A stretch of 35,330 nt of DNA from a virus: positions 1-35,330 of IMG/VR virus record IMGVR_UViG_3300031857_000655. The stretch is one strand, 5' to 3'. The position numbers were made by a program, and so were the translations under genes. The notes below the pieces were generated by a model. The model had not been told where the DNA came from, did no database searches, and was given only the letters and a program-made list of their open reading frames with translations. Positions 1 to 21,600 of this stretch are shown one piece after another; position 1 is the first letter of the stretch, and each line of letters opens with the position of its first letter.

Positions 1-711
1 GAACCTTATTATATACATGATTACTACAATCAAAAGATATCTCTAGCAGAAGCTTTTGATCGTCAAATAAATAATACAACAGACCATAAAGATCTTAGTA
101 AACCTAATCTATATATCAGCACTTATGAGCGTACTTCTGTTGAAAGAATTGTTGAAGAATTTAAACAAATACATAAAAAGAACAAAGTAGTGGTATTTCA
201 GCCTTATGGAAGTACTATGTCAATTTCCAACAATAGACCGTATGATATTTCTAATAGAAGTTTAGACGTTGACGACTATTTAAAAATTGCAAAATTTTTA
301 AATGATAAAGACTGCTTAATATTCTTTTTTGGAAATAAAGAACTTAAACATCCTGGAGATAACTTTAGCGCAGATCTAACTAACTTTAACCCTGAGCTAA
401 GAATGTACATGTCGTTAATAAGTGAATGTGATTACTTTGTAGGATGCGACAGTGTAGGTCAGCATATGGCTAGAGCGTTTGACAAACCTGGCTCTATATT
501 CATGGGTAGTACGTTTGAAAAGAATGTAAGTTATCCAGATCATTTTAAGTTTTTTAGAAAACAAGGGCAAACTCCAGTTTATAGTCCTATTCGTCTTGGT
601 GGAGTAGAATCAGACTTTACAGATAGATTGAACGACGGGATCATGAACTTTTCTGCTAATGAAATCAACGAGTTTTGCCAGATAATACTTAAAGACATAT
701 ATGATGAATAG
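1..711 (+). CDS. Glycosyltransferase family 9 (heptosyltransferase-like), 5' partial
   Basis: The frame is open from the first base, so the true start lies before the window; a GTG at 190 is only an internal codon. About 236 residues are visible. Around fragment residues 135-165 the sequence reads MSLISECDYFVGCDSVGQHM followed by ARAFDKPGSIFMGST, matching the nucleotide-sugar-binding segment of GT-B heptosyltransferases (usual form DxGxxHxAxAxxxPxxxxxGxT). Family members such as WaaC/WaaF move L,D-heptose from ADP-heptose onto LPS inner core. Two genes just downstream resemble the last two ADP-heptose synthesis enzymes, which supports a heptose donor; the acceptor (host LPS, virion protein or something else) is not shown. 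The next gene begins 12 bases after the stop, so they are probably co-transcribed. The family call is fairly sure, the sugar specificity is inferred. Confidence 0.72.
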   Translation, partial: EPYYIHDYYNQKISLAEAFDRQINNTTDHKDLSKPNLYISTYERTSVERIVEEFKQIHKKNKVVVFQPYGSTMSISNNRPYDISNRSLDVDDYLKIAKFLNDKDCLIFFFGNKELKHPGDNFSADLTNFNPELRMYMSLISECDYFVGCDSVGQHMARAFDKPGSIFMGSTFEKNVSYPDHFKFFRKQGQTPVYSPIRLGGVESDFTDRLNDGIMNFSANEINEFCQIILKDIYDE

Positions 712-722
712 TGAGAAGATAA

Positions 723-1268
723 ATGACTAATACAAATTTTTCTGTAAATCGATCTGTAATTAATTATATACATGCAAGAGACTACTTTCCAAAAGATGAA
801 GTAGAACAGCTTCGCCCACTTGTACAAGACGTGCACTGGGTAGATAAAAAGTTTGGTAAAGAGATGGCACACTTCAATCTCATCTTCAACGATATTGATC
901 TTGTAATCGGTAAGATGGTTGGCGATATAGTTGAGATAGACAGACCCTCATCAGGAACTCTTCGTAGAACAATAAATGAAGTAATACACTTCGAAGATTT
1001 TGAAGACTTAAATGATTGGAGATTTGTTGTTTCACTTGAAGAAAATGAATTTAAGACATATATACACAAAGATGGGTATAAAAGCGTTCTTGATTTTATT
1101 AAAGATGAACAGAGTCAAGATAAAGAGCTCGATTATCTCAATAAAGATGATTGGGAAGTAGAAACATCAATAAAAATGAAACCAAACGATGTTTTATTCT
1201 ATCGTCCGTGGATATTCCACTCATTTCAAGATGGCATACTCCATTACTACAAGCTAAAAGTGTTGTGA
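723..1268 (+). CDS. Putative Fe(II)/2-oxoglutarate-dependent oxygenase-like protein
   Basis: A 181-residue soluble protein starting at an ATG preceded by GAGAAG. It lacks a family signature I can name with certainty. Its C-terminal half has the spacing expected of a double-stranded beta-helix oxygenase: FVVSLEENEF, then H115-K-D117 (HxD iron ligands), the segment KPNDVLFYRPWIFHSF giving a distal histidine H166, and lysines at 177 and 179 that could hold 2-oxoglutarate. In known members the order is HxD, about 50 residues, H, then R or K, as here. It sits between a heptosyltransferase-like gene and an epimerase, so a hydroxylation or other oxidation of a sugar or glycosylated product is possible. 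A cupin without catalytic role is the main alternative. Its stop codon ends two bases before the next start. Confidence 0.45.
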   Translation: MTNTNFSVNRSVINYIHARDYFPKDEVEQLRPLVQDVHWVDKKFGKEMAHFNLIFNDIDLVIGKMVGDIVEIDRPSSGTLRRTINEVIHFEDFEDLNDWRFVVSLEENEFKTYIHKDGYKSVLDFIKDEQSQDKELDYLNKDDWEVETSIKMKPNDVLFYRPWIFHSFQDGILHYYKLKVL

Positions 1269-1270
1269 AA

Positions 1271-2059
1271 ATGAAAATATTAGTTACTGGTGCAAGCGGG
1301 TTCATAGGTCAGAATTTAGTAAAAAAACTACCAACTGATTGGGATATAATTAAGTTTGATATCAAAGATTATCCAGATACTCGTCCAAAGCATTTAAGCT
1401 TTAGTAACGTCAATTGGGTTATACACTTAGGAGCGTTAAGTTCTACCACCGAAAAAGATGCTAAAAGAGTGATGGATTTAAATCTTGCGTGGTCTATAGA
1501 ACTTGCAGAGGAATGTGAAAAACATAATGTAAACCTACAATGGTCTTCATCCGCGTCTGTATATGGAAATAAATATAAATGTGCAGTTGATGAAAATAAA
1601 GCTGCACAACCTCTCAATCTATACGCTATGAGCAAATATTTTTTTGAAGAGTATATGAAACTAAAATCTTATGAATTTACATGGCAAGGATTTCGTTATT
1701 TCAACGTATATGGACCACATGAAGAACATAAGGGATCTCAGGCAAGTCCTTATACTCAATTTTCAAAACAAGCTAGTGAGACTGGTGTTATTCGAGTGTT
1801 CGAAGGCTCTGAGAATTATAAAAGAGACTTTGTGCATGTTGATTATGTAGTAGATACTCATGTTAAGATGATACAAAAAAAAGAAAGTGGAATTTTTAAT
1901 TTAGGAACTGGGTCTACTCGTAGTTTTCTTGATGTGGCTAAAGAAATTGCTACTACATACAATGCTAGAATTGAGACGATACCGTTTCCTGAACATTTGA
2001 AATCTCACTATCAAGAATATACTCATGCAGATATGAATAAATTAAGCATGATACTTTAA
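1271..2059 (+). CDS. hldD-like: NAD-dependent epimerase, ADP-heptose 6-epimerase (HldD)-like, short C-terminus
   Basis: A 262-residue Rossmann-fold short-chain epimerase. MKILVTGASGFIG gives the GxxGxxG NAD site (residues 7-13); GALSSTTE at 54-61, Y118xxxK122 (catalytic pair), RYFNVYGPHEEHKG at 142-155 and EGSENYKRDFVHV at 178-190 agree closely with bacterial HldD, which converts ADP-D-glycero- to ADP-L-glycero-manno-heptose. I chose the ATG at 1271, two bases after the preceding stop, because the fold begins there; an ATG at 1151 in the same frame adds 40 residues that overlap the previous gene and look non-native. The protein stops at THADMNKLSMIL, where HldD normally continues about 40 more residues, so it is either a naturally trimmed form or recently truncated; no continuation is visible in other frames. 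HldD assignment rather than a generic UDP-sugar epimerase rests on the SSTTE and EGSENxKRDF motifs. Confidence 0.8.
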   Translation: MKILVTGASGFIGQNLVKKLPTDWDIIKFDIKDYPDTRPKHLSFSNVNWVIHLGALSSTTEKDAKRVMDLNLAWSIELAEECEKHNVNLQWSSSASVYGNKYKCAVDENKAAQPLNLYAMSKYFFEEYMKLKSYEFTWQGFRYFNVYGPHEEHKGSQASPYTQFSKQASETGVIRVFEGSENYKRDFVHVDYVVDTHVKMIQKKESGIFNLGTGSTRSFLDVAKEIATTYNARIETIPFPEHLKSHYQEYTHADMNKLSMIL

Positions 2060-2153
2060 TTTAATAATATATAGAACTAGGTTAAAATAGTCTGTAATTG
2101 ATGATTATCTATCAATATAGTAACTCATGTCCACTACTTTTTTAAAAATTATT

Positions 2154-2182
2154 TTGACTAAACAATATAAATTAGTTAAAAT
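2154..2182 (+). promoter_or_regulatory. Sigma-70-type promoter ahead of the adenylyltransferase and fibre genes
   Basis: TTGACT at 2154-2159, a 17-base spacer and TAAAAT at 2177-2182, in the largest gap of the window (2060-2217). Transcription would begin near 2189 and read the adenylyltransferase and both fibre genes. The -35 sits in the context ATTTTGACTA, nearly repeated at the promoter near 8158. The transcript start has a small GGGT/ACCC hairpin (2191-2203) before the GCGAGAGA ribosome site. Read by eye from consensus only. Confidence 0.55.
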
Positions 2183-2217
2183 TATTATAAGGGTAAAGCA
2201 CCCAGCGAGAGAATATA

Positions 2218-2634
2218 ATGACCAAAGTTTTTGTTAACGGCACTTTTGATATTATACATTCTGGTCATCTATACTTATTAAGCTACGCTAAAAGGTTAGG
2301 TGACCATTTACTTGTAGCGCTAGATAGTGACGACAGAATTCGATCTAAAAAAGGCGATTCTCGACCTGTAAATAATGCAAATACTAGAATCCATATTATG
2401 TCTAGTTTTAAATTTGTTGATGGCGTTAACATGTTTAATAGCGACGATGAATTAGTTCGTATTATACAAAACTACTCTCCTGATATAATGGTGGTCGGAT
2501 CTGATTGGCGCAATAAACCAGTTATAGGCAGTGAATACGCAAAACAGTTAATATTCTTTGATAGAATAGAAGATTTATCTACTACTAATACGTTAAATAA
2601 GTACTTGAGTAGTATAAGAGAGAATAATATATGA
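2218..2634 (+). CDS. hldE-C-like: Nucleotidyltransferase, heptose-1-phosphate adenylyltransferase (HldE C-terminal)-like
   Basis: A 138-residue single-domain cytidylyltransferase-fold enzyme. VNGTFDIIHSGH places the HxGH nucleotide-binding motif at residues 14-17; KKGDSRPVN at 44-52 is the signature of the C-terminal half of HldE (and stand-alone RfaE2), which joins ATP to heptose 1-phosphate to make ADP-heptose; STTNTL at 121-126 is the closing motif. Glycerol-3-phosphate cytidylyltransferases share the HxGH but lack KGDSRPVN. The N-terminal kinase half of HldE is not present here, so the phage would need a kinase encoded upstream of the window or the host's. It has its own promoter and leader, and its stop overlaps the start of the fibre gene (ATGA), so sugar activation and fibre genes share a transcript. 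Confidence 0.82.
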   Translation: MTKVFVNGTFDIIHSGHLYLLSYAKRLGDHLLVALDSDDRIRSKKGDSRPVNNANTRIHIMSSFKFVDGVNMFNSDDELVRIIQNYSPDIMVVGSDWRNKPVIGSEYAKQLIFFDRIEDLSTTNTLNKYLSSIRENNI

Positions 2635-5234
2635 GTAATACCTTTTCAACTCCTTCAGTAGTTACTACTATATCACAAAGTAGATTAGACTATAACGAGG
2701 CTTTGTTATCACTACTACAAAATTTTGCTAGTGCTGGACAGCCTTCTGGCGCAGAAATAAATTCTGATGGAACTACTGGACTGCGTACCGGTATGTTCTG
2801 GTATAAAAGCGGAGCTGATACTGCTGACGGTCAAGGCCGTATGCTAGTATACAATGGTGCAGAATTTACTAGAAACGGTTTAGCAGTTTATAAAATGCCT
2901 AGTTTAGTTGCCGCTAATGCGGCAGCAGTAGCTACAAAAATTTCTTACGGCGAACTAGTATCTGTAGGTAGTGACGCACTGTATATGGTAAATGCTGCTA
3001 ATAACGGCGTATTTCAAGTTGGTGGAGATGCTATAACTCTTTCTGGTTTGACATCTGGTCAATTTGTTCGTACAGATACAAGCTCTACTATAACAGGCAA
3101 TGTAACTTTTAGTGGAACTGGCTTTGTTAAACTGCCTCTAGGTAACGATTCTCAGCGACCTGGAACTCCTGCTCCTGGTATGCTTAGATTTAGTAATACT
3201 AGTGGGTCTTTTGAAGGTTATGACGGAACTGAGTGGGGTGAAATTGGCGGTGGCGGAGCATTTACAGATGACGGCACCTATGTGTTCTATACCGGCTCAG
3301 CTAACGTAGGTATAGGAGTTGCAGCACCGCAAGCTAATCTTCATATTAAAGGCACTGGAAATGTGCTAAGACTTGAAACTGGTACACTAACTGATGCTAA
3401 TGGTGTAGCTATTAGATTTCAACAAAGTGATACTACTATTACAAATGGACAAGGTTATGGAGCTATTGAATGGTCTGGCGCCGATACAGGTAATGATGGA
3501 GTTCGTGGTTATATAAAAGGAGTTGCTGAAGGCGATACTGGCGAGTTTGCAGTTAGAATAGGTACTCAATCATCAGGTGCTAGTGCTCCAACCGATAGAA
3601 TTACTGTAGACAGTGCTGGCAGGGTAGGTATTGGTACAGTCTCACCAAACGTAACACTACAAGTAGCTGGTAACGTTCATTTATCTGGAGGTGATGCTAC
3701 AATATTCAATAGAAGCAATAATTATTTAGCTTTAGGAGCTAACAATATTGAGGCTATTAGAATACTTCCTAATACTAATATTGGCATAGGAGTTACAGCT
3801 CCGACTGCCAATCTTCATATTGCCGGTGCAGGTTCTGTACTTAAGTTACAAACTGCCACAGCTACTGATAGCACTGGAGTTAGTTTACAATTAGTTCAAA
3901 CCGACACTACTATAATTTCCGGTCAAGGATATGGCGGAGTTGAATGGTTTGGTCTTGACGCATCTGGTACTGGAGTGCGTGGATACATCAAAGGCTTTGC
4001 AGAAGGCGATAGCGGAGAGTTTGGTATTAGGATTGCTACACAAGCTACTGGTATTAGTTCTCCTGTAGATCGAGTTTATGTATCTAATACAGGTAGCGTT
4101 GGTATAGGAGTTGCTGCTCCAACGTCTACACTAGATGTAAATGGCGCTGTTACTGCCTTGTTATATTCTGGAGATGGTGGAGGTTTAAGCAATCTAGTAA
4201 ATGCTTATGCTAATGACGGAGTTACGCTAGCAACTGCACGCGGTAATGACCATGCAACGCTACTTAGTGCTCAGTCTAATGACTATGCTACTTATCTTAC
4301 TCTTTCAGCTAACGATGGAGTTACGATAGCAACTGCACGAGGAAACGACCATACCACACTTCTTAGTGCTCAGTCTAATGACTTTGCTACCTTTAACTTT
4401 GCTAGATCTAATGACTACGCTACTTTGCTTAGCGCTCAAAGCAATGACGGAGCTACCTTACTTACAGCTCGTTCTAATGATTGGGCTACGCTACTATCAG
4501 CTCAAAGCAATGATGGAGCTACACTACTAACAGCACGCTCTAACGACTGGGCTACCTATACCACATTAGCTGCTAACGATTATAACACTTTATTAAGTGC
4601 ATACAGCAATGATTTAGTTACTCTAAATTCAGCTCGTGCTAACGATTTAGTTACTTTTAACTCAGCTCGTGCTAATGACTATAGTACATATACCACTTTA
4701 GTAACTACTATAAATGATTTAGATGCTAGATTCTTGCGTAGTAATGCAGCGGCTATTAAAGCTACTGGTGATCTAAAACTAAATGATAACATTCAGCTTA
4801 ATATAGGTACTGATAACGACGTTGAACATTATTTTAATGGAACTGATTATTATACTGATATTAATGTAGGAGCTAATTGGTTCTTAAGAGATGGTGATAG
4901 CGCTAATGCTACACGATTTACTTTTGATATAGATACCGGTAACTTTACTGCTACAGGGGATGTAGCAGCATTCTCAGATGCTAGACTAAAATCAAATATA
5001 CACACATATCAAAACGCTTTAGCTACTGTACAACAACTACGAGGAGTTAGGTATGAAAGAAATAACAAATTTAATATTGGTGTTATAGCTCAAGAAGTTC
5101 AGGCTATCCTACCTGAAGTAGTTAATACTGATAATGAATACTTAGCTGTAGCCTATGGAAATATCATTGCAGTATTAATTGAAGCAATAAAAGAACTAAG
5201 CTTAAAGATTGAAAAGTTAGAAAAAGGTAAGTAA
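2631..5234 (+). CDS. Tail fibre/spike with hendecad stalk and C-terminal S74 intramolecular chaperone
   Basis: An 867-residue receptor-binding-type structural protein. Residues 1-220 are a Gly/Ser/Thr-rich attachment and shaft region. Two gap-free 106-residue copies of a beta-rich module beginning N(V/I)GIGVxAP lie at about 225-330 and 383-488. Residues 528-692 are fifteen 11-residue units of the form NDxxTxxxAxx, predicted to form a trimeric right-handed coiled stalk. The last part has FSDARLKSNI (S782, K787), the hallmark of the S74 peptidase/endosialidase-type chaperone; in this family the released C-terminal domain (here about 85 residues) is cut off at the serine after trimer folding. 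The ATG overlaps the preceding stop. The head-proximal partner and receptor are unknown; it could equally be a side fibre or a central spike accessory. Confidence 0.85.
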   Translation: MSNTFSTPSVVTTISQSRLDYNEALLSLLQNFASAGQPSGAEINSDGTTGLRTGMFWYKSGADTADGQGRMLVYNGAEFTRNGLAVYKMPSLVAANAAAVATKISYGELVSVGSDALYMVNAANNGVFQVGGDAITLSGLTSGQFVRTDTSSTITGNVTFSGTGFVKLPLGNDSQRPGTPAPGMLRFSNTSGSFEGYDGTEWGEIGGGGAFTDDGTYVFYTGSANVGIGVAAPQANLHIKGTGNVLRLETGTLTDANGVAIRFQQSDTTITNGQGYGAIEWSGADTGNDGVRGYIKGVAEGDTGEFAVRIGTQSSGASAPTDRITVDSAGRVGIGTVSPNVTLQVAGNVHLSGGDATIFNRSNNYLALGANNIEAIRILPNTNIGIGVTAPTANLHIAGAGSVLKLQTATATDSTGVSLQLVQTDTTIISGQGYGGVEWFGLDASGTGVRGYIKGFAEGDSGEFGIRIATQATGISSPVDRVYVSNTGSVGIGVAAPTSTLDVNGAVTALLYSGDGGGLSNLVNAYANDGVTLATARGNDHATLLSAQSNDYATYLTLSANDGVTIATARGNDHTTLLSAQSNDFATFNFARSNDYATLLSAQSNDGATLLTARSNDWATLLSAQSNDGATLLTARSNDWATYTTLAANDYNTLLSAYSNDLVTLNSARANDLVTFNSARANDYSTYTTLVTTINDLDARFLRSNAAAIKATGDLKLNDNIQLNIGTDNDVEHYFNGTDYYTDINVGANWFLRDGDSANATRFTFDIDTGNFTATGDVAAFSDARLKSNIHTYQNALATVQQLRGVRYERNNKFNIGVIAQEVQAILPEVVNTDNEYLAVAYGNIIAVLIEAIKELSLKIEKLEKGK
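4212..4706 (+). repeat. 15-unit 33-bp tandem repeat coding a hendecad stalk in the tail fibre
   Basis: Fifteen in-frame units of 33 bases, each coding an 11-residue NDxxTxxxAxx block (for example NDGATLLTARS, NDWATLLSAQS, NDHATLLSAQS). Units 8 and 10 are identical in protein (NDGATLLTARS) although their DNA differs by silent changes. Eleven residues per three helical turns gives a right-handed coiled coil; Asn-Asp at a fixed phase and hydrophobic L/A positions suit a trimer core. This is coding sequence, not a CRISPR array. Confidence 0.88.
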
Positions 5235-5236
5235 TA

Positions 5237-6835
5237 ATGGTTTTACAAGCAAGCGGGCTAATAAGCTTATCAAATATAAAATCAGAATTTAATGGTATAG
5301 ACCCTGTAGAGCTTAGCGATTACTATAGAGGAGGCGTATATGTACCAGATCTTCCTTTGAATGCTAACGTACCTACGAGTGGCACTATTAACGTACGAAA
5401 TTTTTATGGATCTACACTATCTACATTCAATATTAGTCCTAATGTTAGCACCGTAAACGAAGGGGAAACTGTAAGATTTAATGTAACTAGCACTAATTTT
5501 TCTGGCACGCTATACTGGTCTATATTGGGCGGCGTTACAAATTCGGATTTTAGTAGTCCAGCAAGTGCTGTAACCTCTGGTGGAACTCTAACTATTTCTG
5601 AAAATTCAGGACTGCTAGATCTTACTACTAGCTCTGATAGAACTACAGAAGGTTCCGAATCTTTCTCTGTGCGTTTAAAAGCTCTTTCTACATCCGGCCC
5701 AGTAGTAACTCAATCTTCCAACGTATTTATAAACGATACTAGCTTAAATCCGTTCTATGTAACTCTGGCAACAAGCCAATCACCTATAATAGGTCCAAAT
5801 AGTGTTAACTTTACACTTATTGGTAATAGTATTCCAAACGGTAGAACTGTTGGATATACTATAACTGGAATACGAATTCCTAATGATACTAATGCAGCAT
5901 CATTGTCAGGTACATTTACTATGTCTAGTAATACAGCTACAGTATCTCTGCCTTTAAATAGTATTATGGGAGAACTGTTTGTAGTAGATATTAACCCGTT
6001 GGCAGATGTTCAATCATATGATGCTAATATTAGTTTACAGACTACTAGAATACCAAGAAGACAACAGTTTCAGAATATATCAAATAGCCAGTTCGTATAT
6101 ATGTTTTGGAAACCAGATGGTACTAGCTTATTCTTAGCTAACACTCTTAAAGATAGCGTTGATCAGTATAACCTGTCAAGACCTTTCGATACAACAAGCG
6201 CTACTATAACTACAGCTAATGCTAAAGCTTTACCCAGTGCTATTACTGCTCCGTTAGGTATGTATATATCTAGCGGCGGTACTAATCTACTTATTATGGA
6301 TTCTGTAGATAAACGAATATATAGAATGTCCATAGGCACTGCATGGAATATAAGCACACTTAGTGCTACTACCTTTGCATCTCCTGTACTTCCTTTAGTT
6401 ACCTATAGAGGCTTAGAGTTAAGCGCTAATGGTATTCTTTATTTTGTTTGTGCAGTATCTACTGGAAGTGTTAATGTATTTAAAGGTACTACAGCGTTTA
6501 GACCAGATACTATGAGTACTACTCTTATAGAAGACTTTAACCCTCCTGAACCCAGTACACCCACTAGCATAAGATTCAATAGCACAGGTACAGCAATGTA
6601 TTTAGCTGATCAAAGTCCTAATGTAAGTTTTTATACTTTAAGTACTCCTTATACCTTAAGTACTGCTACTCTTGTACACACCCAGAGCTTTAGTGCCTTT
6701 GCAGGTGGCTTACAAATTTCAGACGTATATTGGAATAACGTAATATCTAGAACTGCAACGATTACTACAGCCCTTTCAGATTCTGGTGGTACTAGTACTG
6801 GACCTAAGAGCAATTCTGTCGTTATTACAATATAA
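5237..6835 (+). CDS. Virion surface protein with Calx-beta/Ig-like and beta-propeller regions
   Basis: A 532-residue protein starting two bases after the fibre gene. Residues 1-60 (LQASGLISLSNIKSEF, then LSDYYRGG and INVRNFYG) match a short N-terminal module I recognise from phage tail-tip and fibre proteins. Residues 62-168 resemble a Calx-beta repeat: VNEGETVRFNV early and TTEGSESFSVRL late. A further Ig-like stretch follows to about 275. Residues 280-530 contain repeated units of the type FxxxGTxxxxxxxxxxxVxxYxLSxPxxxSTAT, typical of a beta-propeller. Such proteins act outside the particle in binding or adhesion. No signal peptide, membrane segment or catalytic motif is seen. Direct coupling to the S74 fibre suggests they form one adhesion apparatus. 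Exact blade number and target are unknown. Confidence 0.62.
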   Translation: MVLQASGLISLSNIKSEFNGIDPVELSDYYRGGVYVPDLPLNANVPTSGTINVRNFYGSTLSTFNISPNVSTVNEGETVRFNVTSTNFSGTLYWSILGGVTNSDFSSPASAVTSGGTLTISENSGLLDLTTSSDRTTEGSESFSVRLKALSTSGPVVTQSSNVFINDTSLNPFYVTLATSQSPIIGPNSVNFTLIGNSIPNGRTVGYTITGIRIPNDTNAASLSGTFTMSSNTATVSLPLNSIMGELFVVDINPLADVQSYDANISLQTTRIPRRQQFQNISNSQFVYMFWKPDGTSLFLANTLKDSVDQYNLSRPFDTTSATITTANAKALPSAITAPLGMYISSGGTNLLIMDSVDKRIYRMSIGTAWNISTLSATTFASPVLPLVTYRGLELSANGILYFVCAVSTGSVNVFKGTTAFRPDTMSTTLIEDFNPPEPSTPTSIRFNSTGTAMYLADQSPNVSFYTLSTPYTLSTATLVHTQSFSAFAGGLQISDVYWNNVISRTATITTALSDSGGTSTGPKSNSVVITI

Positions 6836-6844
6836 AGGAATACA

Positions 6845-8128
6845 ATGACTAACAATTATTTTAAGGTACCAGTAGACAAACTAGTATCACGACTACCCGA
6901 TAAGTACGGATTTAAAGAGCTTAACATTAGCCAACAAGCTATGATGGATGGTCTTTCAACTAAACGAAACTGGGTTCATATATCAGCTCGTCGTACTGGT
7001 AAGTCTAGTGGTGCTGCTGTGCTAGCGCTAGCAAAACTGCTAGAGCCTAACCAGCAAGTAATTGTTGTTGCGCCTGACTTTAACCTTAGCTCTATTATTT
7101 GGGATTTTACTACCGAATTGATTGAAGCGTTTAATATTGAAACAAAGCGTTTCAATCTAAAAGATCGTGTTGTAAAACTTGTAAATGATAGCACTCTAAG
7201 ACTGCTGTCAGCTAATAATAGAAGCTCACTAGTTGGTCGTGCTGCTAACTTACTAATTGTAGACGAAGCTGCACTTATTCCAGACGATGAATATTTTACT
7301 AGAGATCTTCGCCCTGCGCTATCAACCTTCCCAGATTCTCGTGCACTATTTATTTCTACTCCTCGAGGTAAGGAAAACTATCTATATAACTACTATTTAC
7401 GCGGTCAAGATGAAAGCTTTCCTGAATGGGGTAGCGGACTATTTCCTTGGCACGCTAATCCTAGACTTACACAAGAAGATATTGAGCAGGCTAGACGAGC
7501 TATTCCTGAATCGCTATTCAGACAAGAATATTATTGCGAATGGGCTACTTTTGAAGGTCAGATTTATAAACTAGACGAAAATGACCATCTAAAAGATCTT
7601 ACTAGTGAATCAGCTGCTTTCAAAATTACTCCAGGTGATTCTCGATTTACATTTATAGCAGGTCTTGACATGGGGTATAGAGACGCTACAGCCTTTGTAG
7701 TATTAGCTACTGATGGCAGTACATGGTTTGTTGTAGATGAATATATTGCTGAAGAGGGCACTACTAGTCAACATGCGGAAGTAATTAAGTCTATGGTTGA
7801 GTTATGGGATATCGAAAATATATTTATTGACTCTGCTGCCCAACAAACTAAAGCAGATTTAGTATACGATTATGATATTGCTTGTGAAAATGCTATTAAA
7901 AGTGTTAATGACGGTATAGCTCATGTGCAAAGTCTTATTGAACAAGATAAAATTATATTTGATATTGGTAATGCCTCTCACACCTTTAAAAGTATGACAG
8001 CTTATCGCTGGAATTCTAGAACTGAAAAGTCAAAACCTGTTCACGATTGGACTTCTCACTGCTGTGATGCTGTGCGCTATGCTATATATACATACACTAA
8101 AAATAGTGCTATTAGTATCTATGCCTAG
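6845..8128 (+). CDS. terL: Terminase large subunit (ATPase and nuclease)
   Basis: A 427-residue packaging motor. ATPase half: Walker A ARRTGKS at 48-54, Walker B LLIVDEAA at 136-143 with D140/E141, and the coupling motif STPRG at 171-175. Nuclease half of RNase H fold: GLDMG with D275, FIDS with D329 and CCDAV with D408, the three acidic metal ligands in the expected order. It pumps DNA into the prohead through the portal and cuts the concatemer. A GG-containing weak ribosome site (AAAGGAATACA) precedes the ATG. The gene lies downstream of fibre genes rather than behind a small terminase, and no small terminase candidate is visible in the window. All key residues are present, so it should be functional. 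Confidence 0.95.
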   Translation: MTNNYFKVPVDKLVSRLPDKYGFKELNISQQAMMDGLSTKRNWVHISARRTGKSSGAAVLALAKLLEPNQQVIVVAPDFNLSSIIWDFTTELIEAFNIETKRFNLKDRVVKLVNDSTLRLLSANNRSSLVGRAANLLIVDEAALIPDDEYFTRDLRPALSTFPDSRALFISTPRGKENYLYNYYLRGQDESFPEWGSGLFPWHANPRLTQEDIEQARRAIPESLFRQEYYCEWATFEGQIYKLDENDHLKDLTSESAAFKITPGDSRFTFIAGLDMGYRDATAFVVLATDGSTWFVVDEYIAEEGTTSQHAEVIKSMVELWDIENIFIDSAAQQTKADLVYDYDIACENAIKSVNDGIAHVQSLIEQDKIIFDIGNASHTFKSMTAYRWNSRTEKSKPVHDWTSHCCDAVRYAIYTYTKNSAISIYA

Positions 8129-8157
8129 GTATTAACATATTTCAAAAATAAAATATT

Positions 8158-8186
8158 TTGACTATTCCGAACATTAGACTTATAAT
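8158..8186 (+). promoter_or_regulatory. Near-consensus sigma-70 promoter ahead of the HNH gene
   Basis: TTGACT at 8158-8163, exactly 17 bases, then TATAAT at 8181-8186, the best promoter match in the window. It lies in the 87-base gap between terminase and HNH genes, so transcription would start near 8193 and run into HNH, portal, protease and capsid. The -35 context TATTTTGACTA is nearly the same as at 2151-2160. Confidence 0.75.
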
Positions 8187-8215
8187 AAATTAAGAAAATT
8201 AAAAGTGATACTCTT

Positions 8216-8596
8216 ATGTCAGATTTGAAACGTCTTCCCGTTAAATACTTACGAGACTACATAAAAAAAGATTATAAAATACGTGATAAATGTTTTATAT
8301 GCGGTTCTGTTTCTGACTTAGAACTCCACCACCTATACAGTGTTAGTGAATTGTTCGAGAGATGGTGTATAAAAAATAAAGTAAAGTCTGTTGACTCTAT
8401 AGATACTATGCTAACTTTGCGAGTTTCTTTTGCCGAAGATTGTAAGGAAGAATTAAGTAGCGAAAATCTGTATACACTATGTACGTCACATCATAAACGA
8501 TTACATTTTTTATTTGGTAAAAGCTATTCTAATTATACTGCTCTTAAAGTAAAAGATTGGCTTATCAAACAAAAAGATACTATGGAGATACAGTAA
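8216..8596 (+). CDS. HNH endonuclease, probably packaging-associated
   Basis: A 126-residue HNH protein. CFICG (C26, C29) and CTSHHKRLH (C89, H92, H93, H97) give zinc and metal ligands; LELHHLY supplies H38/H39, and N84 precedes the second cysteine, in the order C-x2-C, HH, N, C-x2-H. In HK97-type phages an HNH protein next to the terminase stimulates specific DNA cleavage during packaging, and the position between terminase and portal here fits that role. A selfish homing enzyme is the alternative, but it replaces no gene and is translationally packed against portal (its stop abuts the portal ATG). It has its own near-consensus promoter but a weak ribosome site, which may keep its level low. 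Confidence 0.85.
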   Translation: MSDLKRLPVKYLRDYIKKDYKIRDKCFICGSVSDLELHHLYSVSELFERWCIKNKVKSVDSIDTMLTLRVSFAEDCKEELSSENLYTLCTSHHKRLHFLFGKSYSNYTALKVKDWLIKQKDTMEIQ

Positions 8597-9844
8597 ATGG
8601 CAAGAGGCCCACTAGGTTGGATTGTAGAAAAGTTAAATCCTGTTCAGCCCTACATACAAAGTAGACAACCTTTTGCTATGCCTGAGTCTAATGTAGACTT
8701 TAGAGCTGCATACGATCAAATAGAAGTAGTACACCGCGCAGTAGACATGGTTGTTAGTGCATGTGTGGAAATACCTTTTGATATTGCAGGCGAAGGTCCG
8801 ATTAAAAAAATAAGCAAGCTACTTAACGACAGACCTAATCCTTTTGAAGATAGAGTTAAGCTGCTAAGAAGAGCATATTTTGATTTACTAATGGACGGTA
8901 ATGCTTTCTTTTACTATGATGGCACACACATATATGTTCTTCCAGCTAACGATGTTCAAGTTGTATCAGATCCAAAAACTTTTATTAAAGGATATACATT
9001 CTTAATTCATGGCGGTGGTTTATCATCTTATAATTCTGGGCGACAGTCAAAAGAGACTGTGATAGAATTTGGCGCTAACGAAATAATTCACATCAAAGAA
9101 GATAACGACGAAAGTATTTTTAGAGGCAAATCTAGAATAAAAAGCATAGGAAATATAATTAATATTTATAATGCTTTGTTAAAGTTTCAACGTCAATTCT
9201 TTAAGAATAACGCAGTACCTGGAGTGGTATTAACCACAGAAGCTGTTTTAAATACTAAAATAAAAGAAAGACTACTTCAAAGCTGGAGAAATTCTTACGC
9301 TACTATATTTGAAGGCGCTAGAAGTCCAGCTATTTTAGATGGCGGTCTTAAAATAGATAAGTTTAGCGAAATAAACTTTCAAAGTTTAGATTTCGAAGCA
9401 AGCATAGAAAGACTTGAGCAAGATATGGCCAAAGCAATTGGCGTACCTTATGTGTTAATGAAGAGTGGTAATAACGCCAACATAGCCGCTAATCAAGTTT
9501 TATTTTATGAGCATACCGTACTTCCTATAGTACTTATGTTTGCCAGTGCTTTTGCACACTACTTTAACTCTGTTAGAATAAATCCAGATAGAACTGTAAT
9601 CACTGCTTTACAACCAGACTTGAGAACTCAAAGTCAATATTATGTAAGTTTAGTTAATGCAGGTATTATATCAGCTGATGAAGCAAGATTAAAGCTTGGG
9701 TTTAGTACTTTAAACACACCAGAAACTTCTAATATCAGAGTACCACAAAACATAACTGGAAGCGCTGTTCAACCTGATACAGGCGGTAGACCTACTAATG
9801 AAGAAGTAGATACACTACCTGAAGACAGTGTTTCTATTAACTAA
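8597..9844 (+). CDS. Portal protein (HK97 type)
   Basis: A 415-residue portal subunit, forming the dodecameric ring at the unique capsid vertex that binds terminase and then the tail. Seen in sequence: an early helical segment AYDQIEVVHRAVDMV, the conserved RPNPFEDRVKLLRRAYFDLLMDGNAFFYY stretch (residues 76-104 approximately), the IIHIKEDN segment, the FQRQFFKNNAVPGVVLTTE stretch and QDMAKAIGVPYVL, all typical of the Phage_portal family; its length is usual for HK97 portals. The start directly follows the HNH stop and has GGAGAT upstream. The C-terminal 35 residues are polar and likely flexible. The protease-capsid gene follows after 13 bases. Confidence 0.92.
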   Translation: MARGPLGWIVEKLNPVQPYIQSRQPFAMPESNVDFRAAYDQIEVVHRAVDMVVSACVEIPFDIAGEGPIKKISKLLNDRPNPFEDRVKLLRRAYFDLLMDGNAFFYYDGTHIYVLPANDVQVVSDPKTFIKGYTFLIHGGGLSSYNSGRQSKETVIEFGANEIIHIKEDNDESIFRGKSRIKSIGNIINIYNALLKFQRQFFKNNAVPGVVLTTEAVLNTKIKERLLQSWRNSYATIFEGARSPAILDGGLKIDKFSEINFQSLDFEASIERLEQDMAKAIGVPYVLMKSGNNANIAANQVLFYEHTVLPIVLMFASAFAHYFNSVRINPDRTVITALQPDLRTQSQYYVSLVNAGIISADEARLKLGFSTLNTPETSNIRVPQNITGSAVQPDTGGRPTNEEVDTLPEDSVSIN

Positions 9845-9857
9845 GGAGCAAGCAAAT

Positions 9858-12431
9858 ATGGATAAAACATTTTTTATCACTACAGATGACATTCAAAAGA
9901 GTGCCAAAAGTAGTGACAAAACTTTAAGAATTGCTGGCTACGCTAATACAACTAGTAAAGATAGATCTGGAGATATTGTACTACCAGAAGCTTGGGCTAA
10001 AGGTGTAGAAAACTTCCGCAGAAATCCTATTTTACTTTATCAGCACGATCACGGTAAACCTATCGGTAGAGTTAGTGCTGTTACAGTAGATAAAAAAGGT
10101 ATTTTTGTTGAAGCTAGTATTAGTGAGGCTGCAGAACGTCAACACGGAGTTAAAACTCTTATTAATGATGGCGTGTTAAAAAGTTTTAGTGTTGGTTTCA
10201 GAATTAAGGATGCTAAATATGATAAATTAGCTGATACTTTCTATATCAAAGATGTAGAGCTATTAGAAATTTCTGTAGTTAGTGTTCCTGCAAACCAAAA
10301 TTCTTTATTCTCTGTACGCAAAACTTTTGAAGACGAAGCAGACTATGCTAAATTCAAAGATCAATTTGCAGACGATAATAAAGCCTCAGTAGAAGAATCA
10401 GCTGTTAAAGAGCTTGAAGCTACTGAAATCAAAGCCGCAGAAGATGAAGCTGAAGAAGAGTCTACCTTTGTAGAATCTGATCCTATGAAGCTAATTCCTT
10501 TTGTAAACCTTTTAAATGCAGACACTTCTAAAATCACAACTAAATCTTTTGTAGTTATTGATAAAGTTCGTTATAAAACTTCAGAAATTGCTACTGCAGA
10601 GAGCCCAGAATTTACTTTTGAAGAGTGTGACATATCAGGAAATCTAACTGGAAAATCTATTAAAGTACCAGCTATCGATATCACTGTTATTAATGCTTGG
10701 GATCTTGAAAAAGAATACGATATACTATTAAATATTACTAAAACACAAACACTAAACGACGAAGAGAAAGTTAGAGTAATTGGTAAGTTTAAAACTCTTA
10801 TTAATTCAAATGAGCTAGATCTTATTCAATTAAAGAATGATTCCGAACTAGCTTCAAATGCAAAGCTACAAAGAGCTTTAAATGATTCTATCAATCTCAT
10901 GAGTCAAAATTATACTGAATGGAATGACTCTCATTTCAACTTAGCTTACAAAAGCTGTATGGTTATTGAGACGCTAAAGCAGATCCCGGCGGATAGTAAC
11001 AGGGATCTAATGCTAAAAGTATATGGCCATAATATACAAAACACTCTAGAGGAGAAAAGAACTATGACTACTGAAAATGTAGGTGAACCAATGAAGATCG
11101 ATACAAAATCTACTGCAACTGAATCAGTTGCTAGAGTATCAGAACCTCGCGTAGCCCAACTAGTTGAAAAAGCTGGTGAGGCTATCATCAAAGCAGAAGC
11201 TGCTGAGTATAGAGCTCAAGAAACAAACTCTGCTCCAGATCCTCGCGTTATGGAAGAACTAGCTGAACTTAAAGGTCAACTAAAAGCTTATCGCGAGCAA
11301 GTAGGTGCAATGCAAACAAGCAAAATGCACTATCAGGAAAGCACTAGAACTAATGCTCAGTTCTCTGACGCAGAAAAGTCTAATGCAGTGTTCCTAGCAC
11401 GCGCCCTAAACAAGCGTGACATGTTTGACACTAGACTAGGTGATCGTATGAAAGCTGTTCTAACTGACGGCAATCTAAACGAAGCATTTAGCACTAACGT
11501 GTACAACGAAATGCAACAACAACTAGTTATTGCTCCAATGTTTAACCGCATTGATGTAAATAGCAAAGACTTCCGTATTCCAGTAGCCGACGAAGACGGT
11601 TCAGATTTCGTAGCACAATTCCCAAGCGGTTCATTCGCAGCAGGAGTTAACGATTCTACTACTGTACCAACATCTCGTCAAGCTCAAATTGGTGCTGTAA
11701 CTCTAAGCCCTAAAAAGTTCATGGTTGCGACACACATTGCCAAAGACGAAGAAGAAGATACAATTCTTCCACTTATCGACTTCCTACGCCAAGCTGCTAC
11801 TCGTCGCTTAGCTCGTGGTATCGACAAGGCTCTTCTACGTGGTAACGGCTCTCTAAGCGCATTCTCTGCTTCTAACACTCTAACTGCAGCTGGAGCATAT
11901 CCATCTGTTATTAAGGGTCTTGTAGAGCACGCTGCTGCTGTTAACGCTCTAGTTACTAAAACCGGAACAACAATTGATAAAGCAGATCCAGGTGATATCG
12001 CTGCTGCTCGCCTAACTCTAGGTAAGTACGGTCTATCTCTAGGTTCTAACCTAGCATATGTTACTTCTGTAGAAGGTTATAATAACCTAGTAACTAACAC
12101 TGATTTCCAAACTGTAGATAAGTTCGGTGCTCAAGCTACTTACCTAACTGGTAGCGTAGGTGCTGTATACGGTATTCCAATTTTCATCTCTGAATTCATG
12201 GACACCGCTTCTGCAGCTGACTCTAACCTAGGTATCCTAGTTTATAAGCCAGGATTCATTATCGGTGAGCGTCGTTCAATGGAAATTGAAAGCGAATACC
12301 TACCACAACAACAAGTAACTGCAATGTACCTAAGCACTCGTATGGACTTCCAAGCCTTAACAACTGTTTCACAGGCTGCATTAAGTGCTCGTTATTCTTA
12401 CGCAGGTCTAATTACTACTGCAAGCTCATAA
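9858..12431 (+). CDS. Prohead protease fused to HK97-fold major capsid protein
   Basis: An 857-residue fusion. I place the start at the ATG 9858 because AAGGAG sits ten bases upstream; a GTG-type start 30 bases earlier would overlap portal. Residues 1-155 are an HK97 (U35) serine protease: YQHDHGKPIGRV supplies H63/H65, LKSFSVGFR supplies S109/S111, and ELLEISVVSVPAN supplies E137. Residues 156-402 are acidic and of unknown role. From residue 403 (MTTENVGEP) comes a coiled-coil delta-like region to about 510, then the HK97 capsid fold (FRIPVADEDGSDFVAQFPSG, IAKDEEEDT, GILVYKPGFIIGERRSMEIE). A strong internal ribosome site and ATG at 11064 can give a separate 455-residue capsid protein. Fused protease-capsid genes are known but uncommon. 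The capsid part also changes codon use. Confidence 0.92.
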   Translation: MDKTFFITTDDIQKSAKSSDKTLRIAGYANTTSKDRSGDIVLPEAWAKGVENFRRNPILLYQHDHGKPIGRVSAVTVDKKGIFVEASISEAAERQHGVKTLINDGVLKSFSVGFRIKDAKYDKLADTFYIKDVELLEISVVSVPANQNSLFSVRKTFEDEADYAKFKDQFADDNKASVEESAVKELEATEIKAAEDEAEEESTFVESDPMKLIPFVNLLNADTSKITTKSFVVIDKVRYKTSEIATAESPEFTFEECDISGNLTGKSIKVPAIDITVINAWDLEKEYDILLNITKTQTLNDEEKVRVIGKFKTLINSNELDLIQLKNDSELASNAKLQRALNDSINLMSQNYTEWNDSHFNLAYKSCMVIETLKQIPADSNRDLMLKVYGHNIQNTLEEKRTMTTENVGEPMKIDTKSTATESVARVSEPRVAQLVEKAGEAIIKAEAAEYRAQETNSAPDPRVMEELAELKGQLKAYREQVGAMQTSKMHYQESTRTNAQFSDAEKSNAVFLARALNKRDMFDTRLGDRMKAVLTDGNLNEAFSTNVYNEMQQQLVIAPMFNRIDVNSKDFRIPVADEDGSDFVAQFPSGSFAAGVNDSTTVPTSRQAQIGAVTLSPKKFMVATHIAKDEEEDTILPLIDFLRQAATRRLARGIDKALLRGNGSLSAFSASNTLTAAGAYPSVIKGLVEHAAAVNALVTKTGTTIDKADPGDIAAARLTLGKYGLSLGSNLAYVTSVEGYNNLVTNTDFQTVDKFGAQATYLTGSVGAVYGIPIFISEFMDTASAADSNLGILVYKPGFIIGERRSMEIESEYLPQQQVTAMYLSTRMDFQALTTVSQAALSARYSYAGLITTASS
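11048..11066 (+). promoter_or_regulatory. Internal ribosome binding site and ATG for the capsid protein alone
   Basis: AGAGGAG at 11048-11054 lies nine bases before an in-frame ATG at 11064-11066 inside the protease-capsid gene. It is among the strongest Shine-Dalgarno matches in the window. Initiation here yields residues 403-857 of the fusion, i.e. delta-like region plus capsid fold (455 residues), a normal size for an HK97 capsid precursor. Codon use becomes richer in AAC, TTC, CTA and CGT soon after. A nested arrangement would supply capsid in large excess over protease. Confidence 0.75.
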
Positions 12432-13224: not shown

Positions 13225-13476
13225 ATGGCTAGACTCCAGTATATCACTTTTGATATGGAGTTTAGAGAATACACTTCCACAGGTAACTCTTTTAGTGGCG
13301 CTTATAACTTTTTTAGTTTAGAAGATATAGAGGCTCACAAAGAGAAGTCTGAAAGATATAAACAGATAGAAGCTTGGAATATAAAACATGCTAGCTTTAG
13401 GGATGCGTCCCCAATAAGACTTACTACGCATTCTATAGTGAAGAATTTGGAGAAATTAGATGGCGAACTTAGTTAG
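13225..13476 (+). CDS. Small neck-region protein of unknown function
   Basis: An 83-residue protein. I use the ATG at 13225, one base after the preceding stop, giving MARLQYITFDMEF; earlier in-frame ATGs at 13192 and 13213 overlap the glycosyltransferase gene and have no better ribosome site. The sequence is mixed charged (EDIEAHKEKSERYKQIEAW) with a probable central helix and no motif I recognise. Its stop overlaps the next start by 17 bases, so expression is likely coupled. In this position HK97-like phages often carry small head or capsid-accessory proteins, but nothing in the sequence proves that. Confidence 0.6.
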   Translation: MARLQYITFDMEFREYTSTGNSFSGAYNFFSLEDIEAHKEKSERYKQIEAWNIKHASFRDASPIRLTTHSIVKNLEKLDGELS

Positions 13477-14728
13477 TTTAGCAGAAATAAAAGACTTTTT
13501 AGTAATAAAAGTTATTAATACCGATGAAGATGGTCGTTTAGCTAATATTGCTACCCAAGTTAGTTCTCTAGTAGAGTCTTATTGTGGAAGAATATTTGCA
13601 GCAAATAATTATACAGAATACTTTGATGGCGGAATATCATCAGTATTTGTGGCTTACCCACCTCTAAATAGGGTAGATGAAGTATCACATTTTGATGGAA
13701 AAGACTATGTAATTTTAGGCGGGCCAGGAGTTAATGGTGAGCCTATAATAACAGATGGCACTTCTCATAGCATTACTAATGTGGGAAATCCCGTACTAAG
13801 TACTCGCGTTAAAAAGTTTAATAGATCTAGTTTAAAGTTAGACGGTAGTAGTTATGTCCAGACAGATTCTACAGAAGATTGGAACTTTGGAGTTGATCCT
13901 TTTACTATAGAAACGCAAGTTAGACTTGATAATGTTGCCTCGTCACATACTATAGCTTCTAGCGGGTTAATAGCTAATAATAGTCATTGGCAGTTTGAAG
14001 TTGATTTAATAAATGGCGCTCAATTTAGAGTTATAGAAAATAACATTGTAAAGATAAATGTTTCTCAAGGTTCTAATACAGGGTATAGTGCCAATCAATT
14101 CTACCATATGGCAATAGTTAGAGACAACACTACAATTAAAATATATAGAAATGGAACTAGCATAGCATCGTTAACCACAGCTAACTCAATACCTAATTTT
14201 AATAATGGCATATTTGTTGGTAGCGGCACACATAGTTTGACTGGATATCTAGACGATTTTAAGATTAGCCATATAGCAGAATATACCTCTAACTTTACTG
14301 CTCCTACATACCCTACTAGAATAGACGAAAATACTAAACTAATGCTTCGTTTTGATGGGGCGAATAACACAAATGTTATAGCTGATGTATCTAGACGAGT
14401 TAATCAGTTTAGTTTCTATCCAGTAACTGGTGAAATAACTTTTAATACTGGAAATGGCGGCGGAACAGAAGCGCTTGGATTCTTTAGGCCTCTTAAGTTT
14501 TATAACTATCCTAAAGGAGTTAAAGTTACTTATAATGGGGGATACACTACAATACCTAGCGATTTAAAGCTAGCTACGCTTGAAATGGTAAAAGTTATAT
14601 ATAAAGGCAGATCGGGTAGCGAGAGTGTTAGAATGCAGGGAGAAGATATTAGCAGCCATAAGCTGTCACTAGATGGGTTCCCGCCACAAGTTAGAAGAGT
14701 TTTAAATCTATACAGGTTGATTGAATAA
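13460..14728 (+). CDS. Head-tail connector (gp6-like) with inserted LamG lectin-like domain
   Basis: A 422-residue protein, about four times the usual connector. Residues 1-75 (LVSLAEIKDFL, IATQVSSLVESYCGRIF, YTEYFDGG) match the N-terminus of gp6-like connectors that sit below the portal; residues 318-422 (FYPVTGEITF, VKVTYNGGYTTIPSDLKLATLEMV) match their C-terminal half. Between them, about 90-310, lies a concanavalin/LamG fold: SSLKLDGSSYVQTDS, WNFGVDPFTIETQVRLDN, GYLDDFKISHIAEYTSNFT and TKLMLRFDG. Such domains bind carbohydrate or protein and are usual in fibres and decoration proteins, not in connectors. GGAGA lies six bases upstream of the ATG. The insert should project from the neck ring; its ligand is unknown. 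Confidence 0.85.
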   Translation: MANLVSLAEIKDFLVIKVINTDEDGRLANIATQVSSLVESYCGRIFAANNYTEYFDGGISSVFVAYPPLNRVDEVSHFDGKDYVILGGPGVNGEPIITDGTSHSITNVGNPVLSTRVKKFNRSSLKLDGSSYVQTDSTEDWNFGVDPFTIETQVRLDNVASSHTIASSGLIANNSHWQFEVDLINGAQFRVIENNIVKINVSQGSNTGYSANQFYHMAIVRDNTTIKIYRNGTSIASLTTANSIPNFNNGIFVGSGTHSLTGYLDDFKISHIAEYTSNFTAPTYPTRIDENTKLMLRFDGANNTNVIADVSRRVNQFSFYPVTGEITFNTGNGGGTEALGFFRPLKFYNYPKGVKVTYNGGYTTIPSDLKLATLEMVKVIYKGRSGSESVRMQGEDISSHKLSLDGFPPQVRRVLNLYRLIE

Positions 14729-18694: not shown

Positions 18695-21600
18695 TTGGCT
18701 TTAATTAAGAATATAATTCAGACCCAGTTTACTAGTACTGGATCTGGCGCAGTAAATAAACAAGTAGAAACTTTAAATAAAAATCAAACCCGCCTAGCAC
18801 AGAGTAGTGCTAGCGCGGGTCGCTCTTTTGCTGCGCAATCACAAGGTTTAGGTGGTTTAGTTGGTGCCTATGCTGGTGCTGCTGCAACTACATTTGCCCT
18901 ACAACAAGCCTTCTCAAAATTAGCTGCTGCTGCTCGTGCTGAACAAACTCTAGAAGGTCTTAAAAGCTTAGCCACTGCTAGCGGTGAGTCTAGTTCTATC
19001 TTGCTTAAAAATGTTCGTGAAATAACTAAAAACCAATTAACACTTGCAGAAGCCGCACAACAAATTAACCTTAGCTTAAGTGCTGGTTTTGACCAAAGAC
19101 AAATTGAAGGACTAGCTACTGTAGCTATAAAAGCGTCACGCGCGTTAGGACGTGATTTAACTGACGCTTATACTCGTGTTATTCGCGGTTCAGCTAAGTT
19201 GGAAACAGAACTCTTAGACGAACTTGGTATTTATACTAAAATTGGACCATCTACTCGTGCTTATGCTGCTGCCTTAAATAGATCAGCAGAATCATTAACA
19301 GAATTTGAACGTCGTCAAGCATTTGTTAATAGCGTTATTGCAGAAGGAAATAGAAAATTCTCTTCTATAAATACTACTATACCAACTTCCGCAGAAAGGC
19401 TAGAAGCTTTTGGCGTTAAGATTGTTGATGTAGCTACGCAAATGGGTATTCTCTTAGCTAACTATCTAGCTCCATTGGCTGACTTCTTAACAAATAATTT
19501 TGCGGGTAGCTTAGCTGCAGTAGGTACACTGCTTGCTTTAATTTCTAAGACAGCCGTAGGCGCTTTAGGTTCGGCTATAGGTAAATTAGAAACTAAAATT
19601 GAATCTTTTACTAGTAAAACTAGTGGTTGGCTAGCTAAAAATGGTGGGGACTGGCAAGGGTATTCAAAAAAAGCTCAGGAAGCTATGCAAAGCGTAAATA
19701 CTCAAATGCGTGGATTAAACAAAGCAGAGCAAAGCCAACTTTCTGCCTTACGTGAAACTTCTAAACAACGCGCACTAACAAGTTCCGAGCTAAAATCTGC
19801 CAATGACATTTTGAAAAAAAGAGAAGATAGTTTAACTACCCTGACAGCTACTCAGACAAAAGAATTAGCGGTTCTTACGGCTTCACGAGCGGCAGGCAAG
19901 CTATCACAAGACCAAACTAAAGCTCTAGATACTACTATAAATAATTTAACTAAAAGACTCGAAATAAACCAGGCTATACTTGCTAGTACAACTGCTCAAA
20001 CTAAACTTTTTGGAGCTGCCCAAGCTGCTACCGGGGCTAGAATAGCAGCAGTTACTGCTACAGTTGCTTCAGGATTTAGTACTTTAGTAGTAGGAACAGT
20101 AAGTGCTGGTAGAGCTTTACTTGGTCTAACATCAGGTTTTCTTGGGGTTGTGTCAATTGCATCTTTAGTTGGTAGTTCTATTGCCGGATTAATGGGTAAA
20201 CAAGAAGCTTATAACGCCTTACTAAAAGAAGGGGCACTAGCTTTAGGAGCATTCTTTAATCCTGGGGCTGGAAATAGTACTCAGGAATCTTTTAATGCAT
20301 TAGCTGCTGCTGCCCTAGAAGATATGTCTAAAGTAGACGCTACACTAAGAGACATAGATACTTTTAAGATTAAAGATAAAGTTTTTGGTATAAGCGTTGA
20401 TGTAGAAAAAACAAAAGAAGACTTAGTACGCGAAGTTGGAGCTATTTTTGAAGAAGTAGCAAAAGACGGACAAAAGACTTTTACAGAGAGTTTTGCTTCT
20501 GGTAGTGCTGCTACAGGCGGATTATTAGGTTATATTTTTGGAGGTTCTATTATTAGAGGGATTGCCTCTTTTGTAACAGCTAGAGGATTAACAATGCTTG
20601 GCGGAGCGCTTGGTACTGCTTTTGGGGGTCCTATTGGTACTGCTGTTGGTGCGGCTATAGGTGCAGCAGCAGGTGCTGCTTTTGAGTACTATTTCTCAAA
20701 AAGCTTAGACGATTTAGATCCTCAGGCTTTAGAAGATGCACTAATTACTGTTGGTAGAAGGGTTTATAATGACCCTGAAGCATTTGCAGGTATAAATGAG
20801 ACACTAGCACAAGCTCTATATAAAATAGAAGAACAATACGGAGCATTAGCAGAAGCTTCTTTTGCAGGTAGAGAATATTATAGAATTATGGTACAAGTGG
20901 CGGAAGCCATTGGAGACTCTTCTAACAACCTAGAAATATTAACTGATCTATCAAAAGCTTTAGGAATTTCTATTGTAGATTTAAAAAAGAATTTTACCGA
21001 TCTAACAAGCGGCAATGGCAACATTCAACTTATACCTAAATTAGATATACCAGATATTAGCCTACCTGCGTTAACTATTACTATACAAGATGAAAAAGCT
21101 GTATTAAGTAGACTAGCTACAATTAGTGATATTGCAAATGAGTTAGCGTCAAGCTATTTTATAACTCCTGAACAAACTAACTCAGTTTTAACGTTATCAA
21201 ATGCTATTGGTGATTTGGCTGCTATAACTCAAACAGCTAGTACAGACATATTACTAGCTAATAATAATTTACAATCTTTTCGTAACGCTGTTGATGATGG
21301 GTCTATAACCTTAGAGAAATTTGCGGAAAATGAAGCAGCTGTATCTAAGAGTTTAATTAGAGCCGGTGCCGCATTAGATGTTGCTAAAGATAAATTAGCC
21401 GAATTAAAAGATCAAAGAGCTGCCGCTGAAGAACTTGGTATACCAACACAATTATTAGAAATACTTAATGAGGAAATTAGGTTACAGTCAAGTATAGTAG
21501 CAGAAATATCTAAAGGTATTGGTGCTACTCAAGAAAGACTTGGAATACTACTAACAGAGTCCCAGGCTCTTAGAGATCAGTTAAAGATTAAAGAGAACAT

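Follow-up and report, generated by a model that had tools for sequence, protein, structure and literature searches.

The 5' end of IMG/VR virus record IMGVR_UViG_3300031857_000655, analysed here over positions 1 to 35,330 (35,330 nucleotides, hereafter the window), probably encodes two enzymes for the supply of ADP-L-glycero-D-manno-heptose together with a GT9-like enzyme in a freshwater siphovirus, with a proposed route leading from a small cupin to the epimerase HldD. Heptose genes in phages are already known, and T4-like cyanophages carry the module. The cupin, which occurs in phages and in some Woesearchaeota and Nanoarchaeota, is likely to represent a new family of D-sedoheptulose 7-phosphate isomerases. 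As a non-orthologous replacement of GmhA, it would let phages whose hosts lack heptose metabolism begin making ADP-heptose from a common sugar phosphate.

Four adjacent co-directional genes occupy the start of the window, as the initial annotation had it, and a tail-fibre gene follows them directly (Table 1). Wherever the ratio of non-synonymous to synonymous substitution rates (dN/dS) is computable it lies at 0.02-0.11 in all four, so they are not a product of chance; the third and fourth are under purifying selection. The third gene finds its best NCBIfam match in TIGR02197 (235.6 bits, against 88.9 bits for the next other family, GalE) and its best solved structure in E. coli HldD. Its true start is at 1271, the longer open reading frame (ORF) from 1151 running into gene 2. 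Residues S116, Y140, K144 and K178 of E. coli HldD are kept in the window protein and in all 54 viral relatives compared. The fourth gene matches TIGR02199 best, at 110 bits, with glycerol-3-phosphate cytidylyltransferase as the next other family at 69.6 bits. The protein holds HSGH and KGDSRPVN motifs, and among the viral HldE-C relatives HxGH is found in 84/84 and KGxxRPxN in 71/84; its dN/dS is 0.10. The heptose families are thus the clear best matches of both proteins, and the earlier assignments to HldD and to the adenylyltransferase half of HldE stand with one reservation: we call the proteins HldD-like and HldE-C-like, because both score below the curated cut-offs. The motifs quoted in support of those assignments (SSTTE, EGSENYKRDF, KGDSRPVN and STTNTL) are all present in the window translations. 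ADP-heptose synthesis is the best reading of these two genes.

The relatives of both enzymes in phages belong foremost to T4-like cyanophages and marine single-cell viruses. The cyanophages P-SSM2, S-CAM1, S-SSM7 and S-SM2 carry a set composed of HldE-C, a PfkB kinase, a small HAD protein, the cupin and HldD (T4-GC 304-308), encoded by PSSM2_309-313 in P-SSM2 and SXBG_00220-00216 in S-CAM1. P-SSM2 and S-CAM1 have a tail-fibre gene beside the cassette, and S-SSM7 has a gene for a minor coat protein there. The lipopolysaccharide (LPS) genes of P-SSM2 have been described (PMC2984593), and cupin sugar isomerases, kinases, nucleotidyltransferases and HAD phosphatases are listed in such clusters (PMC7824862). 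The order of the cassette genes is conserved across many phages, and each of HldD, HldE-C and the kinase matches its heptose family best among the curated families. Kinase and cupin are nearby in all 18 loci counted, these being the loci found through HldE-C, unlike the window's own type, with enough sequence available; a larger count of cassettes rests partly on loci fetched with the cupin and is therefore biased. Many relatives carry the small HAD protein. GmhA is absent from the related viral records (0/22 and 0/50, with positive controls).

The phage of the window holds its set in two places. The same phage is also represented by a 75.9 kb contig that matches the window at 99.85% identity across 8.6 kb, overlaps its right end and encodes an HldE-N-like kinase (TIGR02198, E 2e-58) whose gene overlaps that of the cupin. 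The two genes lie on the other strand, ~21.5 kb beyond the right end of the window, in the replication region. Between them, window and contig give this phage HldE-C, kinase, cupin and HldD. The initial annotation had expected GmhA, GmhB and HldE-N upstream of the window; the kinase does exist but lies past the opposite end, and family searches of the 75.9 kb contig yield no HAD, GmhB (TIGR01656-type) or GmhA. Likewise, the window and the loci L046 and L047 give no HAD or GmhB match. Searches of relatives also recover the kinase but neither GmhA nor a phosphatase of the TIGR01656 type.

The proposed role of the cupin stems in part from its similarity to sugar isomerases. A profile of 58 cupins searched against the PDB retrieves, besides other cupins, the D-lyxose ketol-isomerase 2y0o (E 4e-7) and the Thermofilum D-lyxose/D-mannose isomerase 7nzo (E 3e-5). 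The Thermofilum enzyme has the metal ligands H75, H77, E88 and H143 and the lysine K86 (PMC8378251). Residues H44, H46, E51, H91 and K49 of the phage-type cupin align to H75, H77, E88, H143 and K86, respectively, and are invariant in 58/58 sequences. The cupin accordingly displays a site of the D-lyxose/D-mannose type, in which the metal is bound by 3His-1Glu and a lysine stands two residues ahead of the glutamate. The step from D-glycero-D-manno-heptose to sedoheptulose has its shorter counterpart in the conversion of D-mannose to D-fructose. We infer for the cupin the role of a phosphoheptose isomerase, so far unrecognised as such, that stands in GmhA's place. Among the papers searched, none mentions cupin together with phosphoheptose isomerase; GmhA and cupin co-occur in one paper, with a single mention of each.

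In cyanophage locus L052, the HAD protein (10098-10442) is named phosphoheptose isomerase and the cupin (10423-10779) cysteine dioxygenase. Both record names look wrong, since a DxD is conserved in the HAD, whose structural match goes by the name capsule biosynthesis protein, and the cupin has a conserved glutamate at a metal-ligand position.

A cupin scan of genomes revealed operons of the order cupin-HldD-kinase-GmhB-HldE-C in Woesearchaeota and Nanoarchaeota. We compared cupin and GmhA across 99 archaeal genomes of one order, mostly draft metagenome-assembled genomes, and regarded matches as strong at E<=1e-30 for HldE-C, E<=1e-35 for the cupin and E<=1e-50 for GmhA. Strong HldE-C is present in 33 of the 99 genomes and a strong cupin in 11, all of which (11/11) fall within the 33, the cupin being located on the HldE-C contig. 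Strong GmhA occurs in 14/33 HldE-C genomes, and its overlap with the strong cupin is zero. The two proteins take the same slot X in X-HldD-kinase-GmhB-HldE-C operons (L207 against L209, L075, L076, L078-L080 and L082); at some loci the kinase shares one frame with the cupin, at some with GmhA. The kinase and HldE-C of L076 exceed the curated cut-offs. Cupin-HldD-kinase-HldE-C operons were recorded in L071-L076, L078-L080 and L082, from Woesearchaeota, Nanoarchaeota and one Nomurabacteria bin; most of them contain GmhB (no match in L074) and none contains GmhA.

Several observations weigh against a cupin-initiated heptose pathway. The third gene fails the equivalog cut-off of TIGR02197 (235.6 against 274.6 bits) and the fourth that of TIGR02199 (110 against 181.5 bits). 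HldD may be dispensable, given that a ~70-base deletion in a sister strain (L002 at 1862, against window 1994-2062) truncates the protein at its C-terminus, the sequence beside it being 99.85% identical. The 75.9 kb contig contains no phosphatase by family searches. A Foldseek search with the cupin model places dioxygenases on top and returns general cupins, and does not discriminate between functions. On the archaeal side, the genomes are mostly drafts, and the thresholds were set after the tables had been seen. Neither cupin nor GmhA is found in 8 of the 33 genomes with strong HldE-C, and genome G033 combines the cupin with a weaker SIS match (E 6e-34). The Fisher and hypergeometric P values for cupin versus GmhA ignore shared ancestry. 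On the HldE-C tree the cupin/GmhA label switches ~5-6 times, with only 3 well-supported independent pairs, too few for significance.

The proposed route would begin with the cupin acting as a metal-dependent isomerase that converts sedoheptulose 7-phosphate to D-glycero-D-manno-heptose 7-phosphate, the step of GmhA in bacteria. The HldE-N-like kinase, judged by its homology, would then form the 1,7-bisphosphate. A phosphatase would take off the 7-phosphate; the host would have to supply this activity, because none was found in the contig of this phage, while in many relatives the small HAD protein might serve. HldE-C would convert the product to ADP-D,D-heptose, which HldD would epimerise, and the GT9-like protein may pass the heptose to an acceptor.

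The most likely destination of the sugar is either the fibres or virion of the phage itself or the surface of the infected host. That ADP-heptose alters the host surface glycan during infection and blocks competing phages, instead of decorating the virion, is an explanation we hold at somewhat under even odds. For P-SSM2 this view has been published (PMC2984593), PMC7824862 takes a similar one, and many cassettes include several glycosyltransferases, methyltransferases and epimerases. The phage Sf-CH8, with Synechococcus WH8102 as its recorded host, speaks against it: the LPS of WH8102 is without heptose (PMC4515613), yet Sf-CH8 carries HldE-C, kinase, HAD and cupin, so in this host the heptose would not merely be supplying a core that already contains it. 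The position of tail-fibre genes next to the cassettes of the window, P-SSM2 and S-CAM1 also favours the virion, yet S74 fibres are found within 5 kb of only 5/95 cassettes, and fibre adjacency is therefore no general proof either way. The further suggestion of the initial annotation, that ADP-heptose feeds DNA modification, seems scarcely credible: nothing specific to it was found, no DNA-sugar transferase was recognised beside the cassette, and the neighbours are fibre and glycan genes.

Other alternatives concern the identity of the enzymes. The cupin might modify a later sugar or nucleotide-sugar intermediate, with the isomerase step left to the host; the functions of the cupin fold are diverse, and the linkage of the cupin to archaeal heptose enzymes could have another reason. 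We consider this unlikely in view of the alternation of cupin and GmhA in one operon slot, the occurrence of each in one frame with the kinase, and the metal and lysine residues that fit D-lyxose/D-mannose isomerases. It is rather improbable that the enzymes are paralogues making another ADP-sugar on which the cupin would act: although HldD and HldE-C of the window remain under the curated cut-offs, and the three viral HldE-C sequences in the tree form a clade apart from the archaeal ones, for each of three different enzyme families the heptose family is far ahead of any other match, and the active-site residues of HldD are intact. The truncated HldD of the sister strain, the split cassette of the window and the missing phosphatase would also agree with passing cargo in decay. 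The chance of this appears very small, as dN/dS of 0.02-0.11 and a cassette order conserved across many phages argue for maintained genes.

The first gene of the window encodes a weakly GT9-like protein. It reaches 19.8 bits against Pfam PF01075 (Glyco_transf_9), under the gathering cut-off of 22; 10/21 of its relatives match GT9 at E<0.01, and a profile of the 21 phage members found no GT9 structure in the PDB. Its PHROG family, phrog_8954, has no known function. Of the heptosyltransferase proposed in the initial annotation, the weak likeness remains, and neither the Pfam cut-off nor a PDB profile match backs it. The second gene had been labelled a 2-oxoglutarate (2OG)-Fe(II) oxygenase, a label that finds no support: the gene has no match in Pfam, NCBIfam or PHROG, and the HxD...H triad is not conserved, the first and distal histidines being kept among ten relatives and the aspartate of HxD varying. 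A fold model of this protein built from 3 sequences has a predicted local distance difference test (pLDDT) score of 41.5, too low for use, and the gene's dN/dS against L034 is 0.03.

Table 1. Genes at the 5' end of the window
Feature	Position	Strand	Matches and remarks
Gene 1, GT9-like glycosyltransferase (weak likeness)	1..711	+	phrog_8954 E 2e-54; 5' truncated, record starts inside gene
Gene 2, conserved phage protein, no assigned function	723..1268	+	2OG-oxygenase label not established
Gene 3, HldD-like ADP-glyceromanno-heptose 6-epimerase	1271..2059	+	TIGR02197 E 7e-70; PDB 1EQ2 E 1e-51
Gene 4, HldE-C-like heptose-1-phosphate adenylyltransferase	2218..2634	+	TIGR02199 E 8.5e-32; phrog_7878 E 5e-44
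Tail fibre, C-terminal S74 endosialidase chaperone	2631..5234	+	Pfam Peptidase_S74 1.9e-14; PHROG tail-fibre families

The link to fibre genes described in the initial annotation is real in the window, where the adenylyltransferase gene and the S74 tail-fibre gene overlap by 4 bases (2631-2634). Further along the window, a single ORF of 3908 amino acids at 18695-30421 occupies the expected position of the tape measure, just after two genes resembling tail-assembly chaperones. As a tape measure, a role suggested by its position, it would mean a very long tail. One ORF (9828-12431) holds both prohead protease and major capsid domains. In the product of 13460-14728, residues 344-420 match a head-tail adaptor and residues ~50-314 match phage structural and baseplate families, the latter stretch resembling an inserted domain beside the adaptor.

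The first part of the window appears to have a history of its own. Positions 1-1266 share 87.5% DNA identity with a T4-like myovirus locus (L034/L048), and HldD is 78% identical to that of the same cassette. The owner of the matching cassette is a T4-like myovirus, with both sheath and terminase present, and the terminase of the window is closest to those of T5-like phages (~40%). The likeness of the GT9-like gene, gene 2 and HldD to the myovirus cassette points to an exchange between phage lineages, one that would not be recent, because synonymous divergence is high. Beside the glycan cassette of L048, several adjacent proteins of ~440-456 amino acids with AWG-type motifs are encoded at 375-9128, and a T4-like relative carries a second HIGH-type nucleotidyltransferase-like gene (L049 10679-11425).

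Taken alone, the window is a modest case, a split and probably exchanged version of a module known from cyanophages. Should the cupin prove to be the missing isomerase, a sugar pathway hitherto considered incomplete would have a coherent opening reaction in hundreds of aquatic phage contigs, and archaea would gain an enzyme assignment. Two misleading database names, phosphoheptose isomerase for the HAD protein and cysteine dioxygenase for the cupin, would become correctable, and heptose glycosylation of virions versus hosts by phages would become testable.

The phage system resembles the bacterial ADP-heptose pathway (GmhA, HldE, GmhB and HldD) in that HldD and HldE-C are the best matches and retain their active residues, and differs from it by the split of HldE into separate genes, the lack of GmhA and the cupin that accompanies the kinase. 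The families of HldE-C, kinase, cupin and HldD are common to the window's phage and the T4-like cyanophage cassette. The window's phage, on the other hand, is a siphovirus, its terminase is T5-like, its kinase and cupin sit elsewhere, and HAD was not found in its near-identical contig. The cupin itself has the fold of the cupin-type phosphoglucose isomerase, for which profile matches are weak (E 0.4-0.9), weaker than those for D-lyxose isomerases. With the D-lyxose/D-mannose isomerases (2Y0O, 7NZO) it shares both the cupin fold and the 3His-1Glu plus lysine site, whereas the phage protein is shorter (~120 amino acids), shows only remote sequence similarity to them and has a heptose phosphate as its proposed substrate.

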